A stretch of DNA of 64,000 bases, from the NCBI GenBank assembly GCA_030374765.1, contig JARGXX010000115.1:310001-374000 (forward strand), in the 5' to 3' direction. The stretch is from Agarophyton chilense (Eukaryota; Rhodophyta; Florideophyceae; Gracilariales; Gracilariaceae). Position numbers and translations under genes: made by a program. A model generated the notes under the pieces. The model saw nothing but the letters and a program-made list of their open reading frames with translations, had not been told where the DNA came from and searched no databases. Within the stretch, counting starts at the first letter, position 1. Every line of letters begins with the position of its first letter. Below are positions 3,001 through 63,005 of this stretch, piece after piece.

Positions 3001-3459
3001 AAGAGCTCGGAGCATAAGTACCCACCTTACCATGCTGCTATCTTGGGTGGTTGGCTTTTCCGGAATCTCCCCCTACAAAATAATTTGGAAACAGCTTCAA
3101 AACGGCAACACAGAAAAGTGAATTGTGGATTACGTCAAATCTGACAACCTTGCTGCAGTGTAATTCTTACACAACTGAACGTATTTGCGCGTCATGCTCC
3201 CGTTTTTGCTCCAATAAACCGCCATTACCTGCCGTGCGAAACCTCGGTTTTCGGCACTTTATTGCTACCCTCTTAAAATAAAGTGAAATTACCGGCGTGA
3301 CTGAAAGTTCGTCCGAGAACCCCGCCGTGACACCCACCAAAATGTGCCACTTACCATACAATATTAGCGTAAGTATCCTCATGGAGACAGTGCACGTCTC
3401 AACTTTTTTGATAGACACCCTACCTCAGTAAACTGTTCTTCCTTGTACACTCAAGTATC
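1..3459. other. No recognisable gene; intergenic or fully decayed sequence
   Basis: Reading both strands I see only short, low-complexity or composition-driven ORFs (longest about 117 codons at 1879-2232, rich in His, Gln and Asn) with no motif I can assign. A 12-bp unit (AGCCCAACATAG) is tandemly repeated about 2.5 times at 2359-2388. No LTR pair, tRNA or rRNA is evident. Confidence 0.5.
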
Positions 3460-3495
3460 TTGTACTTTGTTTTTTCGTTTTGGGCCACCGCTAAC

Positions 3496-3891
3496 ATGTC
3501 TTCCTCTGCACCTGTTTTGAGCATCAACCATCCAAAAGAATTTCCCATCTGCGTTAAAACTCTTGAAGGGAATGTAGCAAAACTTTTCTGTCAACATGTT
3601 TTTTGTAACGATTGTCTTTCGAGGCATATGAAAACAGATGATGCATGGAAGTGCCCAATTTGCCATCACTACACTCACAGCGGATATGTTCTCACTTTTA
3701 TTGACTACACTCCTCAGGTTTCGATTCAGGAAAAACTGCAACGTCCATCACTCACGGACACTAAGCATCAACTTTTAGAAAAAAAAGTGGTAGCAAACCT
3801 TAAGCGCTGCGAGCGCCGAGAAAAAAAGAAAGCGCTACGCCCATCTTCTTCTCATAATCAAAATGGAGAAAAAAGAGCACCATTGAAGTAG
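3496..3891 (+). CDS. Small RING-finger-like protein, first zinc ligand missing
   Basis: An open frame of 131 codons from the ATG at 3496; an in-frame start at 3460 is possible but is not ATG. Residues about 18-58 follow RING spacing: IC, then LFCQH, VFCNDC, and WKCPICHH. This gives Cys, Cys-x-His, Cys-x2-Cys and Cys-x2-Cys. The position expected to hold the first Cys of the opening C-x2-C pair is Phe (FPIC). The C-terminal third is highly basic (KKKALRPSS and similar) with no further domain. RING proteins are usually E3 ubiquitin ligases that recruit E2 enzymes. Loss of one ligand would be expected to weaken the first zinc site, so this may be a decaying copy. It lies alone upstream of Copia1. 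Confidence is moderate for RING ancestry and low for function. Confidence 0.45.
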   Translation: MSSSAPVLSINHPKEFPICVKTLEGNVAKLFCQHVFCNDCLSRHMKTDDAWKCPICHHYTHSGYVLTFIDYTPQVSIQEKLQRPSLTDTKHQLLEKKVVANLKRCERREKKKALRPSSSHNQNGEKRAPLK

Positions 3892-21963: not shown

Positions 21964-22277
21964 TGTAGCATTCTGAATGCACCTGAGTTCGACCGTTCGA
22001 AATACTACGAAGTCGCGATACGGCATTCATCAGCTATTGCTTGGGCTAGAAGTTATTAGAAGAATCACTTCATGGAAAGATCTGGACAGGAGATACTTAA
22101 TTAGGGAAGTACTGTATTTAGTGTACACTGTGAGGTGCCATCACCAAATATTTTATTTGGTATTATTTAGACAATTAAGTAGTGGCACGCCACGTGCATG
22201 CATTACTGTACAGTACTTGCTTTGCATCTGGGCACATTAAAGGGCGCAAGGCCCAGGTGAGGACGGCAAAGGCCAAC
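21964..22277 (+). repeat. Gypsy2 5' LTR, left segment
   Basis: It begins TGTAGCATTCTGAATGCACC and aligns with the 3' LTR from 37246. It is cut at GGCCAAC, where Copia3 inserted. Confidence 0.9.
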
Positions 22278-22556
22278 TATGAGAACGATCATTGATGGAA
22301 GTCGATCGTCTACAAATACGCCCGCTCAATGCTTTATATTTGAATATTCAATTGTCGTTGCTATGAGTCATCATTCGTACCACATGGCAACCTCTTATAT
22401 CATGTATTACGCCCGTTAATTATGTTGTAATGTACTCTATTTATACATCTATGTACCTCATGTTTGTAAACATCTGCGACTGCGGCCAGCCGCTATTTTG
22501 TACTCTGTCCTACACTGTGTGTACCTAGTTCTACACCGCAAGTCTAATCATTCTTA
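22278..22556 (+). repeat. Copia3 5' LTR
   Basis: TATGAGAACGATCATTGATG ... AATCATTCTTA, a 279-bp match to 27088-27366. Confidence 0.93.
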
Positions 22557-22569
22557 GTTATGGGCCCAG
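22557..22569 (+). promoter_or_regulatory. Copia3 half-tRNA iMet primer-binding site containing the gag ATG
   Basis: GTTATGGGCCCAG abuts the LTR and matches the initiator tRNA-Met anticodon-arm complement, as in Copia1. The ATG inside it (22560-22562) is in frame with the gag ORF. Confidence 0.75.
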
Positions 22570-25439
22570 CGTCCCAGTCCAATCTGCCGTCCCGGCCCAA
22601 GTTCTCCTGAGATTCCAAGTCTCCTCCATGGACTGATGGCAAAGGTGACCAGGAAGAATATCTTGATGCTGTGAAGCTCTGGCAAACGTTTCATAACGCA
22701 CTACCAGCTTCGAACAGCAACAAGATTCCAATTGCACTTCAGGCTATATGTCTTAAGTCGCAACTGTATGGCCGTGCAAAGGATTTCTGCTCCGGAATTG
22801 CTGATGGCCAATTGACGGAAGATGGCGCTGTGGATCATCTGGTAGGAAAAATTTACCAGAAGGACGCTCTCTCTGTAGTCAGTGAGGCCTATCGCGATTT
22901 CAACCAACTCTGGAATACTCGTAGAGGCAACACAGAGACTATGAAGAACTTCGAATCCCGTTTCTCCGCGCAAGTTGCAAAGTTCAACTCCATCTCTGCA
23001 ACGACTAAGCTTCCAGAGTGTATTACGGCACTAATGCTGCTATCCAACTCTGCAATTGACGACTCTCAGCGGGTCTCTGTCATGGCAGCAGCTGCACCTT
23101 CCGATGAGAACCTAAATTCTCAATCGTCGAATGATGAGTTTCTGAGCTCTATCACGTATCAGTCAGTGGCCTCGGTAATAAAGCAGTGCGACAAAACTTC
23201 GCATGCCCTGAGTGGTACTGTACCGCTTACTGCTAGTTCTGCTGGCACCACGCAACACCGCGAGCAACATCGCTATAGCAAGAACAGTTTTGGTTACCGT
23301 TACAAAGGACAGTCTCCTTCAATGAAATATCCTTGTGACATATGCGGCAAATACGGTCATTGGAAACGTAACCATAACCCTGACGGCTCACTACCTCATC
23401 ATGTCAAGTCGTTCGATGCACCAGCTACATCATCTGCTTCGCGAGCTCCTGGATCGCGCCCTGACCATGATCAAGAAAGGAGAGACAAGTCGCAAAGGAA
23501 GACAGTGTCGTTTAATATGGCAACTCTGACTAGTTCATCAGCTAGTACCGGCAAGTCACCTGTCGAAGTTGGACCTCTACTTGACGACGGAGCACCGTAC
23601 TCTGCAATTGGCCTTATCGAACTGAATCTACTTGCTGACCATATAGGGATATCGCCCAATCCCAAGCTCGATGCTATTCCCAAAGCACTCGATGGAAATA
23701 CAAATTGGCAGTATGGAGTCGGTGAACACTCCAGTCCGGCACGCTGCATCCTAGGATCTATTGTCATCACTGCGACATCTGACCAAGGTAGAACAGTCCG
23801 TATCACCCACCTTGTCCTGGATGGATCATTTCAGTTGGTCATAGGAAGAAATGTAACTCGCAAGGCCAACATCGAGCATATTGGAAGAAATGCATTGGTC
23901 TTCCTGGCTGATGGTCATAGAGACCATATATCTATAATCAATGAAAGTTTCTTAAGCTACATAGCTCTAGATCGGTTTACCTCTCATTGTAACAATGGTT
24001 CTACACTGTTATGCCTCTCAGCAGTCACTCTCGATAATGCACCACGGCTTGAGGTCAAGAAGATTATAGACAAAGTCCACAAGCACGTTTGTGGTCATGC
24101 AAGCTATACAGACTACAAGCTCCTCCTCGAGAGAAACGGATTTTGGAATGAAACCATAGCTTCCTACCTCACGGACATGGTCAATCGCTGCACGGCTTGT
24201 CGGAGCACATCGGTCCCGCAGCCCCGTCGTAAGGTTTCAATCAGTTCTCTGTCAAAGAAATTCAACGAGGTTCTCTGTGTTGATCATCTCTATCTGGATG
24301 AAATACTACAAATGCATCTGATGGATCTCATCACACGATATTCGAGCGTCTATGCAGTTACCTCGACAAATCTCTCAGAAGCTGTTGTTGGCTTTGAAGC
24401 TTCATGGGTATCACAATTCTGGTACCCTGACTCTATTCGTGCAGACAAGGCATTCCAAATAGGTGCATTCAAGAACTACACCAAGAAGGCGGGAATCCCA
24501 ATTCACCCAGTGCCTCCTGGTAGGCACTCCAAGAATGCAATAGAGTCTAAACACAGCATCATCCGTAGCGTCTTTATTCGTCTAAAAGAAGCTGCTGGCG
24601 CGGACTTCGATCCAAAGCTCTCAGCATACAAGGCTGTGTCAATCTCAAATGACCTCTATGGCAACGACAATATGTCTGCATTCGAACTAGCCAAAGGCTT
24701 TTCTAGCCCTATCGTGGCGAAGCCTATCGAAACAGTAATCCCGGATGATATGCTCAATGCTCGTGACCAGCTTAAAGCTCGTCGCAAACTGGCGCTTATC
24801 TTGCGCTCGAAGGCAGTGACCGAAGTGCCAATTGCAGCTGGTGATCTGATAGAAGTATACCAAAAGAAAGAATTTGAGAAGAGAGGAAAATGGTCCAATC
24901 CCAAACCGGTCCTCTCTATCAACCAGCATGCACGTTCAGTGACTGTACCAGGACGCAAAAATCGAGAAATCACTGTTGCATTTGAAGATACTCGCCCAGC
25001 GCTGCCTCAAGAAAGCTTCGCCCAACTAGTACAAGATGGTATTGACTCGATATCCGAGAGTTCAAGTGACCATTGTACTGCTATAAAGGCACAGGCTGAA
25101 ATGAACACAGATGTCATCTTTGAATGCTCTGTACCAAGTGACACTGCTGTTGACTTATCTCAAGGTTCGTCTGATATCAACACACCTGTTGATGCACCTG
25201 TTGATGATGACTTCTCTACTGAATCCTCAAACGTTGAACCCTGTGTAGGAGACAATATCTCTGTTCTCTGCCCCCTTGAAGAACAATTCTTCCCTGGCAC
25301 TGTCCACTCGGCAACAGAAGATGGTCGTCTAAACATACACTATGATGATGGGGATGTAGAACAACTTGAAATGGAGAAGGAGGTATGGAAGTTTACTGAA
25401 ACACTCCCAGCCAGTTCTGGTACAGTGGCACAACTGTAA
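22560..25439 (+). pseudogene. Copia3 gag-protease-integrase with Tudor-like tail
   Basis: The frame opens at the ATG within the primer site and has one early TGA (22608-22610). From 22611 it is open for over 940 codons to TAA at 25437. Domains: gag (YLDAVKLWQTFHNAL onward); zinc knuckle CDICGKYGHWKRNH (from 23334); an aspartic-protease-like site with the unusual LLDDGAPYSAIG (about 23580); integrase HHCC (VHKHVCGHASY ... NRCTAC, 24077-24200); and integrase core with Asp in CVDHLYLDE, Asp in IRADKAFQIG and Glu in NAIESKHSII. The C-terminal segment (about 25246-25395) reads VLCPLEEQFFPGTV, YDDGDVEQLE and KEVWKF, which resembles a Tudor/SH3-like fold. Without the TGA at 22608 and TAA at 25437 the frame would continue into RT. 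Confidence 0.9.
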
Positions 25440-27076
25440 GTCACAAGCACTGAGAACTCAGTCCTAGAATCGATTCTTGACCATTTTGGGAACAAACCAT
25501 TTCTAAGGCACCACGCACAAGGGTTTGACCAATACCCTTTAGTCAACGCCTACAATGCAGAGGAAGATACATTTCTCAAGACTGTTCGCCCGGTCACACA
25601 CGAAGAAGTTCCTGCGAACTCCAATGTTATCAGCAGTCACACCTTATACAGAGTGAAGACTAATGATGACGGGTCTCTCAAGCTTAAAGCACGTATTGCA
25701 CCACATGGGAACGAGGACGATTTGAAGAACGTCTTGAGCAAAGATTGTACCAGATGTCCACCCACAGGACTTCGGATGTTCGAATCAATTGCATCTCTAT
25801 TCGGCTGGATAATCCACAGGGCTGATGTGAAGGCTGCGTTTCTGCAGACAGGGGAGGCTCAAAGAAACGTCTATGTTCGCCCACCCAAAGAAAGCCAAAT
25901 GAAATCGACTCATCTTTGGCTACTTCTGACAGCTGCCTATGGCCTTGTCAATGCAAATGCCAAGTGGCAGAACCAGTCCGATAATGTTATGTTTGACATT
26001 GGACTCAAGCAGTCGACCCATGTTCCTCAGCTTTTCTTCCAGAAAGAAAACGGAAGGCTGGTATTAATTGTTGCTAAAATAGTTGACGACCTGAAAGCTG
26101 CAGGCGATGGCGACCGTGTGAAACGCTTTATGGAGGATTTTGACAGACGATTCAAGTTTGGTGATGTGATGCAAGGACCAGGCAAACTCCGATTCTTTGG
26201 CATCAACACTGTTCAAAATGGCGACTTTACCATTGAGACAGATGCGGACGATAAGATGAACTCTGTATCTGAGTATCCGTTTTCTAGGCAACGCCGCAAA
26301 CATATTGATTAGCCACTCAATCAGCTTGAAAAGTCTGTGTTTGCCTCCACAAATAGTTCACTTGGATGGATCGGAACTGCGGCTTCACCATTTTGCTCAT
26401 TCTATACCAGCTATCTGCAGCAAAAAGCCCCTGATCTAAAAGTGTGTCACCTTGTTGAAAAAGTGAATATAGTTCGCAAGCTGAAGAAGCTCGGAACAAC
26501 TATTGCTTACCCTAGACCAACAGACAAAAATCAGTATGAACTCAGCGTTCTAGTGTTTTCAGATGCGTCACGGACAGATGAATGTGGCCAACTTGGAGTT
26601 CTAACTGGTTTGCTTATCGGTGAGATGAAGAACAACTCGATTTATCATGCCATATCGTGGTTTTCTCACAAGTCAAAGCGCCCGGTCAAAAGCATACCTG
26701 CTGCAGAGGTTTTTGCTGCCTCGGAAGGGATTTACGAAGGAAAGACAATCTCTAAGGCATACTCGGAGCTTCTTGGCATGGAAATCAAGTTGAGACTTGC
26801 TGTGACTCTAAGGACTTGTTTACTTCACTATCGACACAGAAGAATTCTATCCACAAATCGATTCGTGGTGATGTTAGCTGCGTCCGTTTTGAATTTCAGA
26901 CTGGTGCTGTTGGTAAGATATCGTGGGTTCCCGGACATTCCAACCTGGCAGATCCGCTTACCAAGAAAGAGAGCTCTCTGACAGATGCTCTTCAAATGAG
27001 TCTGTTCACTGGCAGACTTTGCTTCGATTTCCAGGACATTGCTGAGACGAAGCATTCGAAGAAAAACTTTGGCTGA
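25440..27076 (+). pseudogene. Copia3 reverse transcriptase and RNase H
   Basis: This continues the same frame after TAA 25437. RT blocks: LKARIAPHGNEDD, RADVKAAFLQTGEAQRNVYV, LTAAYGLVNANAKW, and the catalytic region IVAKIVDDLKAAG, with IVDD where YVDD is usual. A TAG at 26310-26312 precedes the connection region. RNase H reads VFSDASRTDECGQLG and, after one frameshift near 26790, WVPGHSNLADPLTKKES to the end at 27076. The intact Asp pair suggests that only a few lesions inactivate this copy. Confidence 0.9.
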
Positions 27077-27087
27077 AAGGGGAGGAA

Positions 27088-27366
27088 TATGAGAACGATC
27101 ATTGATGGAAGTCGATCGTCTACAAATACGCCCGCTCAATGCTTTGTATTTGAACATTTAATTGTCTTTGCTATGAGTCATCATTCGTACCACATGGCAA
27201 CCTCTTATATCATGTATTACGCCCGTTAATTATGTTGTAATGTACTCTATTTATACATCTATGTACCTCATGTTTGTAAACATCTGCGACTGCGGCCAGC
27301 CGCTATTGTGTACTCTGTTCTACACTGTGTCTACCTAGTTCTACACCGCAAGTCTAATCATTCTTA
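27088..27366 (+). repeat. Copia3 3' LTR
   Basis: It is preceded by the purine tract AAAGGGGAGGAA and followed by CCAAC. It is a 279-bp match to 22278-22556. Confidence 0.93.
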
Positions 27367-27371
27367 CCAAC

Positions 27372-27534
27372 CAAGAACCAACCAACCTAAACACCATCTT
27401 GGTGAGTCCTGGAAATCCTAAAGTGGTTCCCCACAAAGAGGCACCTATACTATCAGTTCTTAACCGTTTTGAGCTATAGCTCTTGTTCCGAGGATACCCG
27501 CTAGTTTTGCGCGTTTACCGCCCTCTTTCTACAG

Positions 27535-27566
<32 letters not shown>

Positions 27567-27839
27567 TGTTTCTTTATTGATCTCTATACTGCGACCTGGT
27601 GATTTGTGTTGTCACAAAGGTTATCAAGCCGATCTCATGTGCATTACGTACCGCCGTATCTGGACATCGGCCCCGGGAATACACGTATTATCCCCATTGT
27701 TCAGGCACACCTTGCTGCTTTCCGCACACTCTCTTCTTATCTAAGAACCGTCACTCGCAAGGCGACACCCGCTCTTCCCCGTTGTTTCTGTGGATACCCA
27801 CTGCACCGAGACCTCTACAGTCTTCAGTGGAATATCACA
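27372..27839 (+). repeat. Gypsy2 5' LTR, right segment
   Basis: It continues the Gypsy2 LTR after Copia3 and aligns with 37570-38047. It includes a GT dinucleotide run (27539-27566) and ends ATATCACA before the primer site. Confidence 0.9.
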
Positions 27840-27844
27840 TAAAT

Positions 27845-33600: not shown

Positions 33601-34980
33601 TCTTTGTTCGAACTGTAGAATCGCATGAGTAAATCGTGATACCACATGCTCTTAAGAGCTGAGTCGTGCATTGGGCACATTATTCGCAAATGTCTAATCA
33701 TCCAGGAGGTACGAAGCTGTATCTAATCCTCAGAAGGGACTTTCATCGGCCAACTTTGGTAATGGATTGTAATGAGACAGCTACGATGCGCGTAACGTGA
33801 GCGAGGAATAGAGTGAAGCTCTGGAAAAAGAAGAAGCAACTGAAGCTGCTCCCAGCAATTTCACCACTACAGAATGTCAGTATTGACATATTTGGGGAAT
33901 TGATCCGCTCGAAGCGGGGAAACAAATACCTTTTGGTATTAACTGATCGCTTCTCTAAGCTGGTTAAGACTGTTCCGCTGAAACGGATTACTGCTTCCGT
34001 GATAGCACGAGCGTTTATCCACCATTGGGTTTATTACTACGAACCACCGGATACTCTGCTCTCATATAATGGAAAGCAATTCGTTGTACGCTTCTTTCAT
34101 AATGTGTGCAGAATAAATGGAGTTCAGAACGTGATCACCACGACGTATCATCCGCAATGTAACGGGCAGGTGGAACGGTACAACCGTACACTACTCGCTG
34201 CAATTCGGCACTACTTCGGAGAACATCCGAAAGACTGAGATCTGTATACAGACACGCTTTGCTACGCGTAAAATACGCAAGTGCATTCGACGACGAAGCT
34301 AAAACCCTTTGAATTGGTAATATCTCGCCGACCAGCGGCTTTGCCAATCAAGATAGATCCGGACAGAACCGAAGAAGAGTCAATGCCGACGCCGGCTCAG
34401 TTTCACCTACGCTGGAGGAATGAGTTGCGCAAACGCACTACACAGGCCGCAAAAGAGATGGGAGAGGCCCAAGCGCGCTACAAGCGTAATTACGACGCGT
34501 CAATGCGACGGGCACTTCAAGATATCTCATTCGGAGGACACGTTTTCGTGAAAGTGGAAAGGGAAGATCCCGGAAGACTGGAGAGGACAAGGAATGGAAA
34601 CGCCGTCATGAGTTAGCCCCGATCGCTACAGGACCGTATGAAGTTTTCGAATTCGACGAATATACCGTTGTAATACGGAGAGGTACTGAGGTGGAGCGCA
34701 TTTCTCGCGATCCAGTAGTTGGTGCGCCAGATCGAGAAGCTGACATACAGCGAGAGGAATTCACACGTGAAGATATTGAGGTGCAAGAGCCACCACAGCC
34801 CCTAGTTGTGCCGGAGCTTGCGGGCATACCGACGTACAACAGAATAATTCCAAAACTTCCCCATGGTGAAAAAAGTTCGGAAATCCCACGTTTAAGGCGG
34901 AACAACAGTTCTGCGACACACGAAGCATCCGCCCATGATAAAATCATAGCTCCCACTGTAGCAGTGTGAGGAGACACGGT
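30655..34980 (+). pseudogene. Gypsy2 pol: protease, RT, RNase H, integrase
   Basis: Protease-like LDTGAGPNFIRLSAL (about 30660) comes first. RT is LRFCVDYRKLNAVTV and LDANWGYWQIPVAPED (to 31916), then MPFGLTNATATFQRA and catalytic YFDDIIIFSKS (32058-32090). RNase H is DADASDYQIGHALF and EKNYSVSEKEC, interrupted at 32644 by a solo LTR, then resumes as VNTDHSCLRWLMS. Integrase core is NVSIDIFGEL, LLSYNGKQFVV, and NGQVERYNRTL. The second catalytic Asp of the D-D-E triad is replaced by Tyr (SYNG where SDNG is expected), an inactivating change. Stops at 31916, 32569 and 33221, plus frame changes, confirm a dead copy. Confidence 0.92.
32644..33095 (+). mobile_element. Solo LTR inserted in Gypsy2 RNase H
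   Basis: A 452-bp segment begins TGTTAGGAATTC and ends GTTCTAACA, with matching inverted termini TGTTAG/CTAACA. It is bounded by the direct repeat GAATG (32639-32643 and 33096-33100). Removing it restores the RNase H block SEKEC...MVWALTTLRPYL. It contains a TATA-like TCTATATAAACC near 33011 and no coding capacity. It has no second copy in the window. These features fit a solo LTR left by recombination of a complete element. Confidence 0.85.
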
Positions 34981-35521: not shown

Positions 35522-35866
35522 GTGGATGAGATGACAGAACGTGAAGACCCGATTCCGAACGCTACAGCGAACGCTACGGAACCTGTGGATAGGAGTGTCA
35601 CCCCGACTGAGAATTCCGCAACCGAGGAGATGGAATACATCATCAAACCCATTCTAGATCATGGATGGCAAGGCAAGGACAACATTCTACTGTGTAAAGT
35701 GCGTTGGTACGAATATCAACCCGACGATGATACATGGGAGCCCATACGCAATCTGCCACAATCACACGTGCTCGCGTACTGCCGACGTGTTAAACTGGAT
35801 GTCTCAGACACTAGTCATGACGCTCTCGTCGGTTTGGTTGTGTCAGGAGAGCCTGATCGAATCTGA
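35522..35866 (+). pseudogene. Gypsy2 integrase C-terminal chromodomain
   Basis: The block MEYIIKPILDHGWQGKDN then LCKVRWYEYQPDDDTWEP and LPQSHVLAYCRRVKL (about 35630-35790) has the chromodomain pattern of aromatic residues around a W-x-P end. In chromoviruses this domain is thought to guide integration toward marked chromatin. It lies downstream of the integrase core in a separate frame because of intervening shifts. Confidence 0.82.
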
Positions 35867-36065
35867 CCCCTACAGAAGTATGGAGTAACTCCAGGAGGAG
35901 GAAGAAATAAGTGGAGGTCCACAAGAAGTGAGAATTGAAGCAAGAAGAGGAGAGACCTCGCAGAAAGAAGAAGAAGCAAAGAAGTTGCAGATGCTCAAAG
36001 CGTTTTATTTTGTTATCTCAAGAATACCGCTAGTCTGTTTGTTACAGTGCCCTCAGGCAAGAAGG

Positions 36066-37068
36066 TTAGGGATTCGGGTTATTCGAGTTGATACCCATCG
36101 AGAAGTGCAAGAGATTCAGCATCTGCTGTCGACTTTCTTGAACAAGGTGGGGAGGAATCCCAGCGTCTTCCAGGAACTGCCTCAGATTACCAAGCTCGGC
36201 ATCTTGGTAAGCCACTGCGCGTCGAAAAGGCTCAGGCACAGCGCTCTGCATCGCTTCAGGGATCACTGGCTCTATGCCGTCGTTCTCACCCAAAGCGGGA
36301 TCATCGAGGATGACCTCTTCTGACTCGTCGTCGTAATCGATTTCGTGCATCTCATCAACGAGTACGTCTGCTATTTTAGCAGTTGGCTCGTGTATGTATC
36401 CAGTCGGCTGGGTTGGAGGCATTGCTCGCAGAGTTTCCCGCAGAACTTTGGCGTGATCGCTGTCGATATGCTGGTTAGTCCAGGGGTCGTACCAGACGAA
36501 GTCAACTCCGGAACCGGTTCTTCCGGGTGAATACTCACGAAGAGGACGTTCTCTAGCCTGCTGTTCAGAAGGAACAAGGGTCCGGTCAATCTGGTCAATG
36601 AAATTCATCAGGCGCAGAAATTCTTCGTGATTGGCACTTAAGCCCAGGACGAGGGACAGATCGAGTTCTCTCACAAGTTGTCGAGCAATCGGGCTCATAT
36701 ACCACAAGCAATATGTGTCGTACACATCCCATAGAATGAGCACAGCCACATCAGAGCTTCGTCGCGGACCGCCGCAGGGAGAAAAACTAAGGTGCTCGCG
36801 CGTATAATGCAGAGTGCTGCAGGGGGTTTCGGCCGACGACCTCCGCGTAATGCGGGAACCTCTGTACGAAGGAGGACGCAGGTTGCAGAACAGCTGCTGT
36901 GGAGGAAAGGTATGCAGGACCAGGACTGGAAGCCGATTGCGACAAAGGTGCGGTTCGGGAGATTGAAGCGGAACCTCTAGGGGTTGCAGAATTCTGCTGC
37001 ATCGGAGGGTTGTAGAGATCGTCATAAAACGAATGTGGACTGACCACGTAAGGCGGAAAGTTGCTCAT
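36066..37068 (-). CDS. Antisense ORF of Gypsy2 (function unknown)
   Basis: On the strand opposite to gag-pol, between the chromodomain and the polypurine tract, lies a protein-coding-looking frame. It starts MSNFPPYVVSPHSFYDDLY at 37068. One frame change near 36790 joins it to an open stretch running to 36066, in total about 333 codons. It has a Ser/Ala/Pro-rich N-terminal part and a central region with RQLVRELDLSL, EEFLRLMNFIDQIDR and VDFVWYDPW. The tail is acidic (DEMHEIDYDDESEEVILDD) and ends GIPPHLVQESRQQMLNLL. I do not recognise it. It is far more open than the sense pol of this decayed element. A shorter relative (57396-57782, minus) lies at the same place in Gypsy3. Antisense ORFs near the 3' LTR are known from some plant Ty3/gypsy elements; any relation is unproven. 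Confidence 0.6.
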
Positions 37069-37234
37069 CGCGAGATGTCAGATACACGAAACGCTTGAAC
37101 GATGGAATAGCGAGATGATCGCAAGGTGGATTGGGAAAACACAAGGATGTGATAAGAAAAGAAGAATCGGAATGTCCGAGAAGCGCGCTGCGATTTCTTT
37201 TAAAGACAATGCGTCTCGGTGGCTCCGCTCTTAA

Positions 37235-37245
37235 CGGGGGGGATA
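37235..37245 (+). promoter_or_regulatory. Gypsy2 polypurine tract
   Basis: CGGGGGGGATA lies directly before the 3' LTR, the usual site for priming plus-strand DNA synthesis. Confidence 0.75.
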
Positions 37246-37735
37246 TGTAGCATTCGGGATGCACCTGAGTTTGACCGTTCGGAATACTACGAAGTCGCGA
37301 TACGGCATTCATAAGCTATTGCTTGGGCTATACTCGACTACAGAAAGTTTTGAGAAGAATTACTTCATGGAAAGATTGGGACAGGAGAAATTTAATTAGG
37401 GAAGTACTGTATTTAGTGTACACTATAAGGTGCCATCACCAAATATATTATTTGGTATTATTTAGACAATTATGTAGTGGCACACCACGTGCATACATTA
37501 CTGTACAGTATTTGCTTTGCCTCTTGGCACATTAAAAGGCACAAGGACCAGGTGAGGACGGCAAAGGCCAACCAAGAACGAACCAACCTAACTACCATCT
37601 TGGTGACTCCTGGAAATCCTAAAGTGGTTCACCACAAAGAGGCACCTATAATTTCAGTTCTTAACCATTCTGAGCTATAGCTCTTGTTCCGAGGATACCC
37701 GCTAGTGTTGCGCGTTTACCGCCCTCTTTCTACAG

Positions 37736-37778
<43 letters not shown>

Positions 37779-38047
37779 TCTTTGTTGTTCTCTCTACTGA
37801 TACCTGGTTATTTGTGTTATCACGAGGATTGTCGATTCGATCTCGTGTGCATTACGTACCGCCGTATCTGGACATCGGCCTCGTGAATACAAGTATTATC
37901 CCCATTGTTCAGACACACCCTGCTGCTTTCCGCACACTCTCTTCTTTTCCAAGAACCGTCAATCGCAAGGCGACACCCGCTCTTCGCCGTTGTTTCTGTG
38001 GATACCCACTACACCGAGACCTCTACAGTTTTTAGTAGAATACCACA
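37246..38047 (+). repeat. Gypsy2 3' LTR
   Basis: 802 bp, TGTAGCATTCGGGATGCACC ... ATACCACA, followed by the TAACG duplication. It contains an uninterrupted CCAAC site (the Copia3 target in the other LTR) and a GT run at 37741-37774. Confidence 0.93.
37741..37774 (+). repeat. (TG)n microsatellite inside the Gypsy2 LTR
   Basis: About 17 TG units; the corresponding run in the 5' LTR (27539-27566) is shorter. It is part of the LTR and not an independent locus. Confidence 0.9.
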
Positions 38048-38052
38048 TAACG

Positions 38053-40925: not shown

Positions 40926-41002
40926 AGGCGATTGCAATGTAAAGTAATACTTCTCTGGTTGAGTTCTAGACGCCGCCAGTTTTGTTTCACTTCTTGTTCA
41001 CC

Positions 41003-42604
41003 ATGTCTCGGTCCAGCTTTTTCCAAACCGTATTTGTCCTCAATGTCTTTCTTGCCGCTCATGCTATCGCGGACATCTACACAGACTTTCTAATTGTCGG
41101 TGGTGGTACTTCGGGCTGCGTACTTGCAGCACGTCTCTGCACTGCGTTTCCAAATCTACACGTCACTCTGCTAGAACGTGGACTCCCTCGATCCGCCCAG
41201 TCCGAATTCCTCGTCGATGCTCCTCGAAATCTCTATCAAACCTGGTCAGATCGTTCGATCACCGAATTTTTCGAATCTCTTCCAGATGAAGGAATAGGCG
41301 GAAGGGTAACTCCCACACTCACAGGCAACACCTTGGGCGGATCATCTTCTATCAATGGCATGCAATGGACGGTCCCAACCACAAGTTCGATACAGCAATG
41401 GGCAATTTCAGGTCTCGACTCAGCTACGGCAGCATTCTACTTCCGACGTGCATACGAAACCGTGGGATTTGCGCCCCCACAATCACCTCTTCAGTACGCA
41501 GATGATTACGTTAGTGCCGCTCTCAATGTGGGATTTCAGCCATCTAGTGATCCTATTTCGCAGCCGCCGACGTCAGTCTGGCAAAACCGTCTAGCAATCA
41601 CACAAAATTTCCGCCGGAACGATGCCTGTACGGCGTATGTAGAATCGGTGAAGAACGGAAAATGTTCACAAAATCTGAGCATCGTTCAGGGTGAGACTGC
41701 GTCGAACATCATCATGGAGGACGTATCGGGCGGTGGAAAACGAGCCATAGCGGTCGATACGATTTCGACTGCTGATCGTATCTCAAAGAATCGTTTTCGG
41801 GCGAGAAAGGAAATCATATCGTCTGCTGGACCTTATGGATCGCCTACACTATTGCAGCGGTCGGGGATAGGAAGCGCTTCTACTTTAAGCTCCGCTGGAA
41901 TTGTTCAACTAGTTAGCTTGCCTGTTGGTGAACGCTCTCTGACTCGGGCAAGTGTGGGTGTGTCTTCTACATACACTGGAGTGCCTGACGAACCTGCAAA
42001 TAATGCCCAGGCAGTGGCAAGCGCTGAGGAACGTTCAAAATGGGAGGCGGGACGTGGTGGACTATTGGGAACACCAGTAACGGCCGCAAATGGACGCGTG
42101 GGAGATGATGGCTATTTCACAGCTACGTTGGTTCCGTTCTTCCCCGGAAATCCAGAACTGAGAACAGGGTGTTATCACAACACAAAACAGACTGGCTTCG
42201 TTCGAATTCGTGATTCCAATGCTTTTAGCACGCCGTTGTTGAAAAACAACCTACTCCGCGATCCAGACGATGTCGGTCGATTGGTACGATGTCTCCGAAA
42301 AGTGGCTCAGATCCATCAAAGCTTTCCTCCAATATTTGGAATGAGACTTGTGGCCCCTGAAAACGGTACTATAGACGAGCAGTACGTTAGACAGAATGCA
42401 AACACGGGGGCTCACATTGTCGGTGGGTGCGCTGTGGGAGACGTTTTGACGGATGAGTTGAAGGTGAAAGGAGTGGAAGGATTGAGGGTCATTGACGCAT
42501 CGGCAATACCGCAAATGCCTGTTTCAGCCGGCCCTGCCGCCTCCGTGTACATGTTGGCAGAATTCATGTCTGACAAGATTGTCTCCGACCATAGTGGCTT
42601 CTGA
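41003..42604 (+). CDS. Secreted GMC-oxidoreductase-like flavoprotein, copy 1
   Basis: An intact 533-codon ORF. ATG 41003 (ACCATGTC) was chosen because it gives a hydrophobic signal peptide (FFQTVFVLNVFLAAHAIA) like that of copy 2. The FAD dinucleotide fold DFLIVGGGTSGCVLAARL is followed by the Glu strand VTLLERG. The GMC signatures are NTLGGSSSINGMQW and SSAGPYGSPTLLQRSGIG. The C-terminal catalytic region reads GAHIVGGCAVG, keeping the first His. In VSAGPAASVYMLAE a Gly occupies the place where the second catalytic residue (Asn or His) normally sits. GMC enzymes oxidise alcohols or act as hydroxynitrile lyases; the substrate cannot be told. It probably acts outside the cell or in the secretory route. 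No stops, frameshifts or introns. AATAAA occurs at 42771. It is in direct tandem with a close paralogue. Confidence 0.9.
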   Translation: MSRSSFFQTVFVLNVFLAAHAIADIYTDFLIVGGGTSGCVLAARLCTAFPNLHVTLLERGLPRSAQSEFLVDAPRNLYQTWSDRSITEFFESLPDEGIGGRVTPTLTGNTLGGSSSINGMQWTVPTTSSIQQWAISGLDSATAAFYFRRAYETVGFAPPQSPLQYADDYVSAALNVGFQPSSDPISQPPTSVWQNRLAITQNFRRNDACTAYVESVKNGKCSQNLSIVQGETASNIIMEDVSGGGKRAIAVDTISTADRISKNRFRARKEIISSAGPYGSPTLLQRSGIGSASTLSSAGIVQLVSLPVGERSLTRASVGVSSTYTGVPDEPANNAQAVASAEERSKWEAGRGGLLGTPVTAANGRVGDDGYFTATLVPFFPGNPELRTGCYHNTKQTGFVRIRDSNAFSTPLLKNNLLRDPDDVGRLVRCLRKVAQIHQSFPPIFGMRLVAPENGTIDEQYVRQNANTGAHIVGGCAVGDVLTDELKVKGVEGLRVIDASAIPQMPVSAGPAASVYMLAEFMSDKIVSDHSGF

Positions 42605-43510: not shown

Positions 43511-43520
43511 TATACTTAAA
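43511..43520 (+). promoter_or_regulatory. TATA-like box of second GMC gene
   Basis: TATACTTAAA lies about 60 bases before ATG 43571. Confidence 0.4.
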
Positions 43521-43570
43521 ACCGCTGCTTCCTCAGCATCATTTGCATACTCAATTGCATCAAATCAAAA

Positions 43571-45190
43571 ATGATCTCTATCTTTCCTGTCTTCCTCGTC
43601 TTGTTCGCCCTTCTTATCTCCACGAATGGGCAACAAACCACAGACTTTCTCATCGTCGGTGGAGGTACAGCTGGCTGTGTGCTTGCTTCAAAGCTTTGCA
43701 CTGCCTTCCCCAATCAGCGCATCACCGTCATTGAACGCGGTCTTCCAAGATCATCGTCCTCCAACTTCCTGGTCCAAGCCCCCAGGAACCTCTTCTCTGT
43801 GTTGTCAGACCGCACAGTCGCGGAGCTCATTCCCTCCCTTCCAGATGTTGGAATCAACTCACGCGGCGTGGATGCTGTAACTGGTTCTACTTTGGGTGGG
43901 TCCACGGCTATCAATGGCATGCAATGGACAGTTCCGTTTCCAGGAACGGTTGAACAATGGGGTGTTAACAACCTCACGTCTAATCTCGCCGACGCTTACT
44001 TCCGTGCAGTTTATGAAAAGGTGGGATTCGGACCTCCGCAAAATCCTCTTCAATACGCAGATGAATATGTACAAGCGGGAATTGATTCTGGGTTCGAATT
44101 AAGTGACGATCCATTCGAACAACCATTCCGTTCAATTTGGCAAACACGCCTTTCCATTACTAGTTCCTTTCGGCGAAATGACGCTTGTTCAGCCTACCTT
44201 CTTCCACTTCTTCAGACGGACTGCTCTCAGAACGTGAACCTCATCCAAGGTCTCACTGTTTCAAAGATTGTTTTCCAAAGAACCTCTAACCACACTGTTC
44301 CAACTGAACCCCCTTCGTTAAGAGCTGTGGCCGTTGATACGATTTCCACCCCGTCAAGTTCGCAGCAGCCCCAACGCATCTTCGCATCCAAAGAAATCCT
44401 TGTCACTGCCGGTCCATACAATTCTCCAAAGCTGTTACAACTTTCTGGCATTGGTCTGAAGCCCGTGCTTGACGCAGCCGGTGTGCCTCAAGTACTCGAT
44501 CTGCCCGTGGGGGAGGCTACCATCTGTCGCGCATCTGGTACTATTCCTTCGACGTACAGCGGCGTCCCCGACGAAGCAGCAAACAATCTGACATTAGTGA
44601 ACTCTCTCGAAGCTCGCCGACGATGGGACGAGGGGCTGGGAGGCATTCTAGGGACACCTGTTTCGGCCGCAAATGGTCGCGCTGGTACAGACGCGTACTT
44701 TGGTTCTTCACTCGTTCCGTTTATTCCAGGCTCTCCAGAGATTCGTTCTGCTTGCTATCACAACACCGAAACGACTGGATACCTTCGTATTCGCGATTCA
44801 AATCCGTTCAGTTCCCCGTTAGTCAAGTACAATCTACTTTCTTCCCAACAGGACTTGCAGAGGTTGACAAACTGTCTAAAAGAAATGGCTGATCTTCATC
44901 GAAAGTTTCCGGAACGATTCGGTATGTCATTTATGTACCCCCCTAATGGGGTTATTACGGAGGAATTTGTTCGGAGTGTTGCCCAGTGGGGGGCTCATTT
45001 CGTCGGTGGCTGTCCAATTGGGTCCGTTTTGCGAGGGGATTTCAAAGTGAATGGTGTAAGTGATTTGCGAGTCATAGATGCGTCAGCCATACGCACTATG
45101 CCAGTTTCTGCAGGACCTATGGCTTCTGTATATATGCTAGCTGAGTTGATGGGAGACAGGCTGGTGGAGGAGTATAAAGCCGCACCATAA
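43571..45190 (+). CDS. Secreted GMC-oxidoreductase-like flavoprotein, copy 2
   Basis: An intact 539-residue ORF. Signal peptide MISIFPVFLVLFALLISTNG is followed by the FAD fold DFLIVGGGTAGCVLASKL and ITVIERG. Signatures STLGGSTAINGMQW and TAGPYNSPKLLQLSGIG match the GMC family. As in copy 1, the C-terminal motif keeps His (GAHFVGGCPIG) but has Gly in VSAGPMASVYMLAE where Asn or His is usual. The two proteins align over their full length with few gaps, showing tandem duplication. Absence of any disabling mutation, in a region where nearly every other gene is broken, suggests selection on both. Length is typical for the family. Substrate unknown. Confidence 0.9.
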   Translation: MISIFPVFLVLFALLISTNGQQTTDFLIVGGGTAGCVLASKLCTAFPNQRITVIERGLPRSSSSNFLVQAPRNLFSVLSDRTVAELIPSLPDVGINSRGVDAVTGSTLGGSTAINGMQWTVPFPGTVEQWGVNNLTSNLADAYFRAVYEKVGFGPPQNPLQYADEYVQAGIDSGFELSDDPFEQPFRSIWQTRLSITSSFRRNDACSAYLLPLLQTDCSQNVNLIQGLTVSKIVFQRTSNHTVPTEPPSLRAVAVDTISTPSSSQQPQRIFASKEILVTAGPYNSPKLLQLSGIGLKPVLDAAGVPQVLDLPVGEATICRASGTIPSTYSGVPDEAANNLTLVNSLEARRRWDEGLGGILGTPVSAANGRAGTDAYFGSSLVPFIPGSPEIRSACYHNTETTGYLRIRDSNPFSSPLVKYNLLSSQQDLQRLTNCLKEMADLHRKFPERFGMSFMYPPNGVITEEFVRSVAQWGAHFVGGCPIGSVLRGDFKVNGVSDLRVIDASAIRTMPVSAGPMASVYMLAELMGDRLVEEYKAAP

Positions 45191-56869: not shown

Positions 56870-57395
56870 CTTATTTTGAGATTAAGACAACCGGGTTTCA
56901 AGAAAAAGAAGATTCCATGATCTTGGTTAGAAATCTAAGCTGTTACATGTAGTAAAAAATTTACGAATGAGCGTACCCTACCGGTCAAAGATTAGTTCCA
57001 TGCAGACCCTGGAGGAATAAGAATGTTTTCTGTCCTCAAAGTAGAAACATATTTAACGTACTATTCTATTCGTTTCAACGGCGCCCGAGAAGCTCAGTTC
57101 TTCATGGAAAGAAGCAGCGGTGATATCGATGATGGTTGGTGCTGTGGCTACTTTGTGATACAATGCAGCTGGATATGAACCTGTGCATGATGGAAAATTC
57201 GGTTGTAATTTCGTAGAGTTCAATCACATGGCTCAGATGCTAGCACGAAGTTATCAGAAATTGTCTTCACAACAACGAAGCCTTACTATGTCCGGAAGTG
57301 CAGCCGGTGTTTCATTTGAAATGCATTTCATACGCTGAATGTACATTCGTAGAAGACGGAGGTAGTGTATAACACGTTTTGGTTTTCAGAATGTA
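56870..57395. other. No recognisable gene
   Basis: Should include the right border of the CACTA-like element and the left border of the Gypsy3 remnant; neither was identified. Confidence 0.4.
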
Positions 57396-57782
57396 TCAAC
57401 GCAGATCCACAGGACAATGCAACCAACGGTTATACCACGAGGCGAAGCGCCCGTTCTTACTGCCTCTCCGGAAATCGGGGAGCTTAGCGAACCTCCGGGA
57501 TTCGAGAAACTCGTGAAAAAACCTCTGGTAATCTTCCACCGAGGACGGCCGAATGGCATGACGCACGGCCCGCAGATTGTGTCCGATGGTATGGTCATAG
57601 CGCTCCCCGGGGCGCTCATAAGCCACTTGGTATCCCGAGGAGCTCCTCGCTTGGTTGTTTGACGCCATGTCGCCGCTTCCCACAGGCTTGTCCGCCGGGA
57701 AATGGATAGAAAAGCCGACGGAAGCGACATAGTCCGGACGGAGAATATCGTATCTGACGGGCTTCTAAGGCGAGTTCGGCAT
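57396..57782 (-). pseudogene. Antisense ORF of Gypsy3, relative of the Gypsy2 antisense ORF
   Basis: A minus-strand frame of 129 codons from MPNSP (57782) has one TAG near 57767 and a stop at 57396. It contains VRYDILRPDYVASVGFS, HNLRAVRHAIRPSSVEDYQR, FFHEFLESRRF and FASWYNRWLH. These parallel RQLVREL, EEFLRLMNFIDQIDR and FVWYDPW of the Gypsy2 antisense protein in the same order, and both begin M-x-N-x-P. Similarity is weak residue by residue, so common origin is a hypothesis supported mainly by identical placement and orientation. Function unknown. Confidence 0.42.
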
Positions 57783-58201
57783 TACGCGCGACCAATGGAA
57801 AAGTACCACGATGGGAAGATGAGATGATGTAATTGACCGGAGCGGACTGACAGACGTAAACCACGGTGGACGAAGCGCGTAAGGTCGCCAAAGTAGAAGT
57901 GGAAACTAAGGAAGGCCGCAATGACCAAGGGACCATCTCGCCCATACGCCACGAGGAATACGCTGGCGATGCACCTATGGACATTGTTCATTGCGCGCTT
58001 GAGTTACAGTACTTAGGCAAATTGATTGCCACCCCGGCGCCAATTGTCAGCTCACACTTCCTCGTACCCCCGCAGGTGATGACGACGCGACGTCCAGTCG
58101 CACCCAATGGTAATGGGAGCAACTAAGCACTCACGTCACCTAGATCAATCATGAGGCAATCTGGACTTCACGGTGACGGTCAAATCCTAAGGAGGGATAT
58201 A

Positions 58202-58650
58202 TGTGAAGGAGCAACGGTAACAGTTGAGTTCTGTGAGCTGACGGGCCCTGAGGGATCTTACAGGCGCCACATGGACTGGCAGACCTCAGCTGGACTGATG
58301 TAGATTATTCAAATATTTAAATTAGTGTAATAGATTAGCATTACAGTACCAGGGAGATCCCAGCGCCTCGCCATTGCTATTTACTTGGCTCGAGTAACGC
58401 TTCTCCCTTAGAGTGAGGTAGGCACTGTTAGGATACTGAATTACCACCTTTGGTACATTAGTTTCACCAATTGGTCTTCAAGCCATCGTTTCCATAGCTC
58501 CGACCTGTAGGACTCCGCAGTAAACGTAAGCCCATGGCACCAAGTACTCTGGGAGTGCCGCCGTCAAGGATTCAACCCTTAGGACCCACTCTACCACGCT
58601 ATCCCAGGTTGAGACCAGTACGCTGACCTACCAGTCATTGCGTTACACTA
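58202..58650 (+). repeat. Putative Gypsy3 3' LTR
   Basis: It starts TGTGAAGG after the purine tract, but no second copy is present in the window. The end is not defined. Copia4 sequence begins by about 58900. Confidence 0.35.
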
Positions 58651-62169: not shown

Positions 62170-62861
62170 TGTGGCCGCCAGATTGGCCCCTTTTATTAGA
62201 CGGACATTTAGCTATTTAGGATAGACTTTATTTATTCTATTCTACGGTGACTACAGTACTTAGGCCGCCGGCCTCGCGGCCGCCGGTCCAGTAAAGTCTG
62301 CCCAACAAGGGTGATCTTGGTCTTCCAGATCTTGGCTCTGGGTCAAACCGCCTGCGCGGATATTCAACTCCTTACGGAGGGATTTACCGTGGTGCACGGC
62401 TTCCCAACCCCCTTGGACGTTCAAGCAGCCTTCGTGTGATGGGTATCTATTCCCACTTTCGTGGTTCCGCCCGTGTGTACGGTTTGCTACACCCGGCAGT
62501 GCCGGCTATTCCCGAGTCCCCTCTTGCGACTCGTGGTCAACCTCGCCCTCTTGCCTCCGTTCCCATTTTCCTTCCCTTTTCCTCCCCTTCATTGTGCAAT
62601 TCCCGCTCTTGCGGCTCGCACTGACACCTGTCGTGCTCGCCACTCTCGTGGGTTTTGCCTCCTCAGAGGATACGCAAGCACCGCTTCGGCGGATAATCTC
62701 GGCTTCTTTCAGCCTCCCTGCGCCCGTCGCGACGGTTCGGCTCCGGCTTACACCCGGCATTGCGCGCCGATCCCTGGGAGGGCTCTACCGCGCCGGTTAC
62801 TTCGTGAGAAGAAGATCCGGACGTCTTCGTAGGTTTTCCCCCTTGGGGGCATTTTCCTACA
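62170..62861 (+). repeat. Probable 5' LTR of Gypsy4 (borders uncertain)
   Basis: GC-rich non-coding sequence directly upstream of a primer site identical to that of Gypsy2. The right end (CTACA at 62861) is set by that primer site. The left end is a guess at TGTGGCCGCC. The 3' LTR would lie outside the window. Confidence 0.45.
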
Positions 62862-62864
62862 AAT

Positions 62865-62878
62865 TGGTCTCCCGACTT
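62865..62878 (+). promoter_or_regulatory. Gypsy4 primer-binding site
   Basis: TGGTCTCCCGACTT, identical to 27845-27858 of Gypsy2. Confidence 0.7.
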
Positions 62879-63005
62879 AGAAGTCAAGACCGCTTTTGTC
62901 CTCTCTGAGGTTGTTTTCCGTTTAACGGGTTTTCACCGGTCTCACCGGTTTTCTTTCTATTCTTCCGTCGAGACGGTGTGGCCAAGGCCAAGGAAACCGC
63001 CTAGC

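Follow-up and report, generated by a model that had tools for sequence, protein, structure and literature searches.

Full-length relatives of a decayed antisense reading frame in chromodomain Ty3/Gypsy elements of the red alga Agarophyton chilense

The stretch of DNA analysed here (the window; 64,000 nucleotides of Agarophyton chilense contig JARGXX010000115.1, positions 310,001 to 374,000) contains the remains of a Ty3/Gypsy element, Gypsy2, whose broken pol lies on the plus strand. The pieces of this pol include an integrase core (33801-34238; Pfam PF00665, E 8.6e-10) and, at the end of pol, a chromodomain (35633-35863; PF00385, E 7.5e-7). Further along the same strand, direct reading of the sequence gives a polypurine tract (37233-37245), which is followed by the 3' LTR (37246-38050, the end being approximate). 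This LTR matches two plus-strand segments, 21964-22288 (87.9%) and 27367-27842 (90.3%), which represent the first and second parts of a 5' LTR that was apparently split by a later insertion. As the 5' and 3' LTRs are only 88-90% identical, the insertion of Gypsy2 is old. The segment that apparently interrupts the 5' LTR, at 22289-27366, is by eye a Copia-like element with a 942-codon open reading frame (ORF) at 22611-25439 followed by pol ORFs; residues 892-921 of this first long ORF give a sub-threshold match to a Tudor-type domain (PF18115, E 2.3e-4).

On the minus strand, in the interval between the chromodomain and the purine tract with its 3' LTR (from about 37246), the ORF read-out of the window shows 332 codons without a stop (36066-37064). 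A preliminary description of this DNA had reported an antisense ORF of about 333 codons here, and the open run is real and in that place; what does not survive is its reading as a gene, since the run spans an internal deletion and two frames, and the full ORF has 558 codons. It lies beyond the pol stop codon and does not overlap pol.

The nature of the run becomes clear from other copies in the genome. For this family, which we call family A (Gypsy2 type), there are 126 genome candidates, of which 40 were scored (39 fetched copies and the window copy), and a single one, L023, is open from ATG to stop, over 558 codons; the other 39 have stops or frame changes. By tblastn with the L023 protein, the window copy consists of two minus-strand remnants. 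The N-terminal remnant (36781-37068, ATG at 37068; residues 1-96 of 558) is 72.9% identical in frame -2, and the C-terminal remnant (36045-36755; residues 322-558), which overlaps the 332-codon run, is 77.2% identical in frame -3 (E 5.6e-110), with one internal stop in each. The two remnants lie in different frames, and therefore roughly the first 100 residues read from the 332-codon run are an out-of-frame translation. When the window sequence was used as the query, 36 of the 39 other copies matched as two pieces (query positions 1-320 and 321-1003) about 650 bp apart, three matched with the second, C-terminal piece alone, and the window copy gave a single match; hence it is the window copy that was deleted internally, with the loss of about 650 bp (codons ~97-321) at a junction that the copy comparison places at 36748-36749. 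The Gypsy2 feature in the window is thus an old, decayed copy that has lost about 650 bp internally and undergone a frame change.

A TATA-like octamer, TTTAAAAG, is found on the minus strand at 37197-37204, 136 nt before the ATG, and is a candidate core promoter for the antisense frame. A match of at least seven of eight positions to TATAAAAG is present near that place in 22 of the 29 family A copies tested (of 40), compared with 2 of 1450 random windows inside the ORF region, the copies being related by descent and so not independent. The exact octamer TATAAAAG occurs in three of the 29, and the intact copy matches at six of eight positions. The octamer was sought in family A alone, and by eye it was not seen in the leader of A2, a second family described below. 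In one family A copy (L008/L015, G000:C4:343-345 kb) the sequence before the ATG, read by eye, translates like window 62315-62908 and is in frame with the antisense ORF.

Protein searches with family A led to family A2, about 50% identical to A, of which two copies (L086 and L087) are open over 560 amino acids each. A hand count gave 18 A2 copies with a stop-free 560-codon match among the 78 listed (1792 first-look candidates). Four A2 ORFs have an equal score (1140.1 bits, 89%; G000:C34:486338, C114:2872, C115:2606 and C115:49186) and a fifth at C95:1200388 has the same 1140.1 bits at 88%; two of the four are close to contig starts, and the equal scores may reflect duplicated segments. Family A3 came to light because an A2 element sits inside an A3 ORF: at L089:122-798 (G000:C4 near 611 kb) the LTR side of the A2 element ends within the A3 antisense ORF, a nested insertion. 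Its intact member, L091, has 622 codons, and 150 A3 loci were listed as the best of 1256 candidates found with a 101-residue query. The first-look candidates in the 80-Mb genome, 1935 for the chromodomain (150 scored), 1792 of A2 type and 1256 of A3 type, indicate that chromodomain and A2/A3-type elements are seemingly very abundant.

The fourth type is represented in the window by Gypsy3, for which the preliminary description had claimed a shorter ORF in the same place and orientation. It is indeed on the minus strand, but it is a remnant of the N-terminal 126 residues alone, from a protein that is at least 678 amino acids long, with the C-terminal side cut off (57363-57782; tblastn 62.1% identity, E 4.6e-43). 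A probable polypurine tract, by direct reading (58191-58201, plus strand), lies beside it with an LTR-like start near 58202; no second LTR and no chromodomain were found nearby within the window, and a few relatives elsewhere show the arrangement. The Gypsy3-type copy L090 is open for at least 678 codons, from the ATG to the edge of its sequence stretch, with no stop seen up to that point, and by hand count 20 of the 119 copies listed (794 candidates) have a stop-free C-terminal half. Thus the expectation that the ORF would recur in other copies is borne out by long open ORFs in L023, L086, L087, L090 and L091, copies taken without regard to age. The antisense frame is thus more than a chance opening: these full relatives are single-exon ORFs open over 558 to at least 678 codons, and the longest run in their other five frames is at most 271 codons. 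All copies were found through the antisense ORF itself, so that elements that do not have it would escape these counts of copies.

The position of the ORF relative to pol and the LTR was compared across the families. In family A an opposite-strand chromodomain lies past the ORF end in 38 of 40 copies, the exceptions being L015 and L023, and in L048, the longer locus of the intact L023, it is found at 3433-3663 on the minus strand (75% over 77 residues). A strict pattern recognises a junction of polypurine tract and LTR in 20 of the 40 copies, 155-192 nt ahead of the ATG, and a looser pattern finds it 181 nt ahead of the ATG in L048. One A2 copy could be followed in order through L088, L087 and L089, which hold a sense integrase core (PF00665, E 9.2e-14) and chromodomain (PF00385, E 5.1e-6), the antisense ORF, and the purine tract with the LTR (from about 122), respectively. 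Chromodomain neighbours were taken from the best 150 of the 1935 chromodomain candidates. Among these, 14 matches have one of the 78 listed A2 copies no more than 4 kb away, and all 14 are convergent at 340-441 bp; four are near the 119 listed Gypsy3-type copies, three of them convergent at 518-567 bp and one arranged otherwise; and none of the 150 listed A3 loci is near a chromodomain among the matches listed, while the single A3 copy that was fetched has one, convergently. The antisense ORF is therefore convergent with the pol chromodomain in A, A2 and A3 (one copy in A3), and it directly precedes the purine tract and 3' LTR in the Gypsy2 type and A2.

The antisense proteins of the first three families are plainly homologous by sequence comparison, with 50% identity between A and A2 over 510 residues (E 2e-175) and 33% between A and A3 over 571 residues (E 2e-79). 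For the Gypsy3 type, Smith-Waterman scores were 66 with A, 96 and 77 with A2 and 87 with A3, and none of 500 shuffles reached the observed score with any of the four queries; the shuffle maxima were 64-67, so that family A clears the shuffles by little (66, with a highest shuffle score of 64). The preliminary description had expected a profile comparison to detect similarity between the two ORFs, and it does: with hhalign, the three-family profile matches the Gypsy3 type with E 1.4e-5 and probability 80, colinear over 206 columns, although HMMER against the Gypsy3-type ORF was not significant (E 0.12; best reversed-sequence control 1.0). Before the full A3 protein was included, hhalign gave E 0.0018 and probability 15, and two narrower profiles gave probabilities of 0.3 and 2.1. 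BLASTP of the Gypsy3 type gave 21-23% identity to A3 over 120-196 residues (E 2.7e-7 to 0.010 by settings), 20-21% to the A2 protein L086 over 278-300 residues (E 5e-6 to 0.001, and 3e-5 in another run), E 6e-4 to 0.09 by settings to the A2 protein L087, and a short match to A in a different register (E 0.009-0.025). In a run with a cut-off of E 1, A3 was the sole relative listed (E 1e-6). As the scores vary by method and settings, we take the homology of the Gypsy3 type as probable, short of proof.

The earlier attribution of the ORF to both Gypsy elements is supported in that the Gypsy2 and Gypsy3 types are probably homologous, but this rests on the full-length relatives and not on the motifs by which they had been paired. 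The pairing of EEFLRLMNF with QRFFHEF, together with a WYxxW motif, was rejected because in an alignment of full relatives these motifs occupy non-homologous positions: the Gypsy3-type protein has EEYQRF and WYNRW in its N-terminal part, while EEFLRLMN and WYDPW are in the C-terminal half. A fifth, very divergent possible relative is a fragment on the minus strand of L084 (96-362; G000:C16:355801-356067; profile E 0.0018). For this type 150 loci were listed as the best of 360 candidates, with open frames of up to 876 codons and a listed chromodomain within 6 kb in two of the 150, one in each arrangement.

Comparison of the families shows constraint on the reading frame. Between A and A2, dN/dS is 0.21-0.22 at a dS of about 2, which is near saturation, and the differences per codon position are 0.35, 0.30 and 0.62. 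For A2 against A3 the ratio is 0.35 at dS 2.2, while A against A3 and A3 against the Gypsy3 type are saturated. For the Gypsy3-type L090 the ratio is 0.21-0.37, at dS 0.46-0.51, against five other sequences that include one near-identical pair. Two recent A2 copies gave 1.05, and other Gypsy3-type comparisons are closer to neutrality: L084 against L082 and L083 gave 0.72-0.73, and L079 against L085 gave 0.92, although this last pair apparently takes in leader and frame-shifted stretches. A dN/dS near 1, named in the preliminary description as part of a refuting outcome, is thus not what the families show, with values of about 0.2 between A and A2 and 0.21-0.37 for L090; the 1.05 of the recent A2 pair is the neutral decay that inserted copies should undergo. 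These ratios show purifying selection between families, with the two recent copies differing neutrally. Inside family A (38 sequences) biallelic sites are evenly distributed over codon positions, with no codon-position bias; this is expected after insertion but lends no support to selection. In this reading, selection would act on the active lineages and the copies would decay later. The integrase cores of Gypsy2 and A2 are 73% identical (120 residues) and the C-terminal/chromodomain parts 43% (84 residues); as the antisense proteins of A and A2 are 50% identical, compared with 43% for the end of pol, the two evolve at roughly equal rates.

Known domains were not found in the antisense proteins. 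For L023 nothing in Pfam matches at E up to 10, and for L086, L091 and L090 at E up to 1 the sole Pfam match is PF23520 in L086 (E 0.78); NCBIfam and PHROGs gave none. Searches by sequence against solved structures returned chance-level S100 matches (E 0.43-1.9) in one case and none at E up to 1 in a second, scanning IMG/VR with the alignment of the three families gave 36 pattern matches of which none was confirmed, and a single-sequence AlphaFold2 prediction of the window fragment was unusable (mean pLDDT 36.9). The HBZ protein of HTLV-1 is a bZIP protein, and Pfam shows no bZIP match in the antisense proteins. The proteins do have features in common: all five are acidic in their C-terminal part, many aromatic and arginine positions are invariant across three families, and a central hydrophobic stretch lies at an equivalent place in all families. 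The maximum 19-residue hydropathy of this stretch is 1.07-1.82, and the customary transmembrane cut-off on this scale is 1.6; two of the five proteins exceed it, three lie below, and charged residues occur within the stretch. The antisense orientation of the gene makes an envelope-like protein unlikely, yet two of the five proteins do pass the cut-off in the central stretch, which leaves some room for a membrane role. In the Gypsy3-type protein there is a basic stretch, PPKKRARL, which we take to resemble a classical nuclear signal, and A3 has RRRR; a clear stretch of this kind is limited to the Gypsy3 type.

Genes of this kind have been named before. The literature describes antisense ORFs known as aORF-3R or eORF-3'R, of more than 250 codons, which are present in many copies, occupy the interval from pol to the 3' LTR and run convergently to gag-pol; they occur in the plant Ty3/Gypsy elements Grande (GENE23), RIRE2, Retand (TRP28) and PvRetro13 and in the fungal element Boty of Botrytis (PMC7264820, PMC11963269, PMC6317226). 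Thus the earlier statement that the ORF has no assigned function agrees with the literature covered, but the kind itself already has a name. The ORFs described here have the same position between pol and the 3' LTR (the LTR side being seen for the window, A and A2), are antisense to gag-pol and, at 558, 560, 560, 622 and at least 678 codons, exceed the minimum of 250. The antisense ORF of Grande is reported to be transcribed from its own upstream promoter and its protein to be nuclear (PMC7264820, PMC11963269, PMC6317226). However, there are differences. A plant survey describes eORFs as highly heterogeneous, with 314 groups in Ty3/Gypsy, whereas the homology is clear here for three families and probable for a fourth, and Retand elements are non-chromoviruses whereas the elements here carry a chromodomain (PMC7264820, PMC11963269, PMC6317226). 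Moreover, Transposase_28, the plant mobile domain (PF04195, PF10536) and the SMC domain gave no Pfam match in the antisense proteins searched. HTLV-1 HBZ and HIV-1 ASP, beside which we set a protein of 558 to at least 678 residues, likewise come from antisense genes in the 3'-terminal region of LTR elements, but their promoter lies in the 3' LTR, a location that here is conjectural, and they belong to animal retroviruses (PMC10186651).

Chromoviruses occur in green and red algae, and the abstract of that report makes no mention of an antisense gene (PMC3605345). With the class assigned by domains alone, Gypsy2 and A2 resemble chromoviruses in having an rve integrase core and a chromodomain at the end of pol. 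The genome that carries them gives nine matches to the light-harvesting family PF00504, as befits a photosynthetic eukaryote. In the part of the open literature covered, through titles, the beginnings of abstracts and passages, we found no report of an antisense ORF in algal Gypsy elements. What is new is an antisense gene in chromodomain elements of an alga, and a single protein family that extends over divergent elements.

We propose that what the window shows is the decayed remnant of a true accessory gene, encoded antisense between pol and the 3' LTR of chromodomain Ty3/Gypsy elements and having a trans-acting product, a proposal to which we give roughly an even chance. A promoter of the gene's own, placed in the leader or the 3' LTR, would drive its transcription convergently with gag-pol, and the protein, probably nuclear, would act in trans as a regulator or helper of the element, a role proposed for Grande GENE23 and reported for HTLV-1 HBZ. 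By this analogy a trans-acting accessory protein is most likely; everything beyond a selected protein, including the regulator or accessory role raised in the preliminary description, we infer by likeness to these two. The window copy on its own, broken and deleted, would look like a mechanically open frame or a nested foreign insertion that is no gene of the element, but the constant place and orientation, the long intact ORFs and the signs of selection contradict this, and we find it scarcely credible. Independent capture of the Gypsy2- and Gypsy3-type ORFs, with a resemblance due to chance, would fit the 20-21% identity, the HMMER E of 0.12, the hhalign probabilities of 0.3-15% with shallower profiles, the dependence of BLASTP on settings and the narrow shuffle margin of family A. 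It is nonetheless improbable in view of the plain homology of A, A2 and A3, the 0 of 500 shuffles and the hhalign result (E 1.4e-5, probability 80).

Two other explanations accept that something antisense is selected. The product could be the RNA, forming dsRNA with genomic RNA and tuning silencing, the ORF being secondary; an RNA from this location would be complementary to the genomic RNA in its 3' part, and non-coding antisense transcripts are known in other elements (PMC7264820, PMC10186651). However, this leaves unexplained why the frames stay open over 558 codons to at least 678, the third-position excess and the dN/dS of about 0.2-0.4, and we regard it as a distinctly unlikely account. 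It is also conceivable, though on balance unlikely, that the antisense message encodes no regulator but a structural or life-cycle accessory protein, acting in the particle, at a membrane, in nuclear import or as an integration cofactor. A conserved protein of at least 560 residues with invariant aromatic and arginine positions and a central hydrophobic stretch, above 1.6 in two of five, would suit such a role, but there is no known domain, nothing ties the protein to particles, and the hydrophobic stretch carries charged residues and falls below the cut-off in three of five. Returning to the antisense accessory gene, a wider form of the proposal is that it is an ancestral third gene, which selection has kept in no fewer than four divergent families, and perhaps in five, and that it encodes a new retroelement-specific protein family acting as an HBZ-like trans regulator; this we offer tentatively and would not call probable. 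A shared antisense family with intact copies and measurable purifying selection makes its conserved residues, its transcription and its effect on gag-pol testable.

Elsewhere in the window, 40970-42604 and 43520-45190 are adjacent intronless ORFs of GMC oxidoreductase type, the first identified by Pfam and the second by eye.
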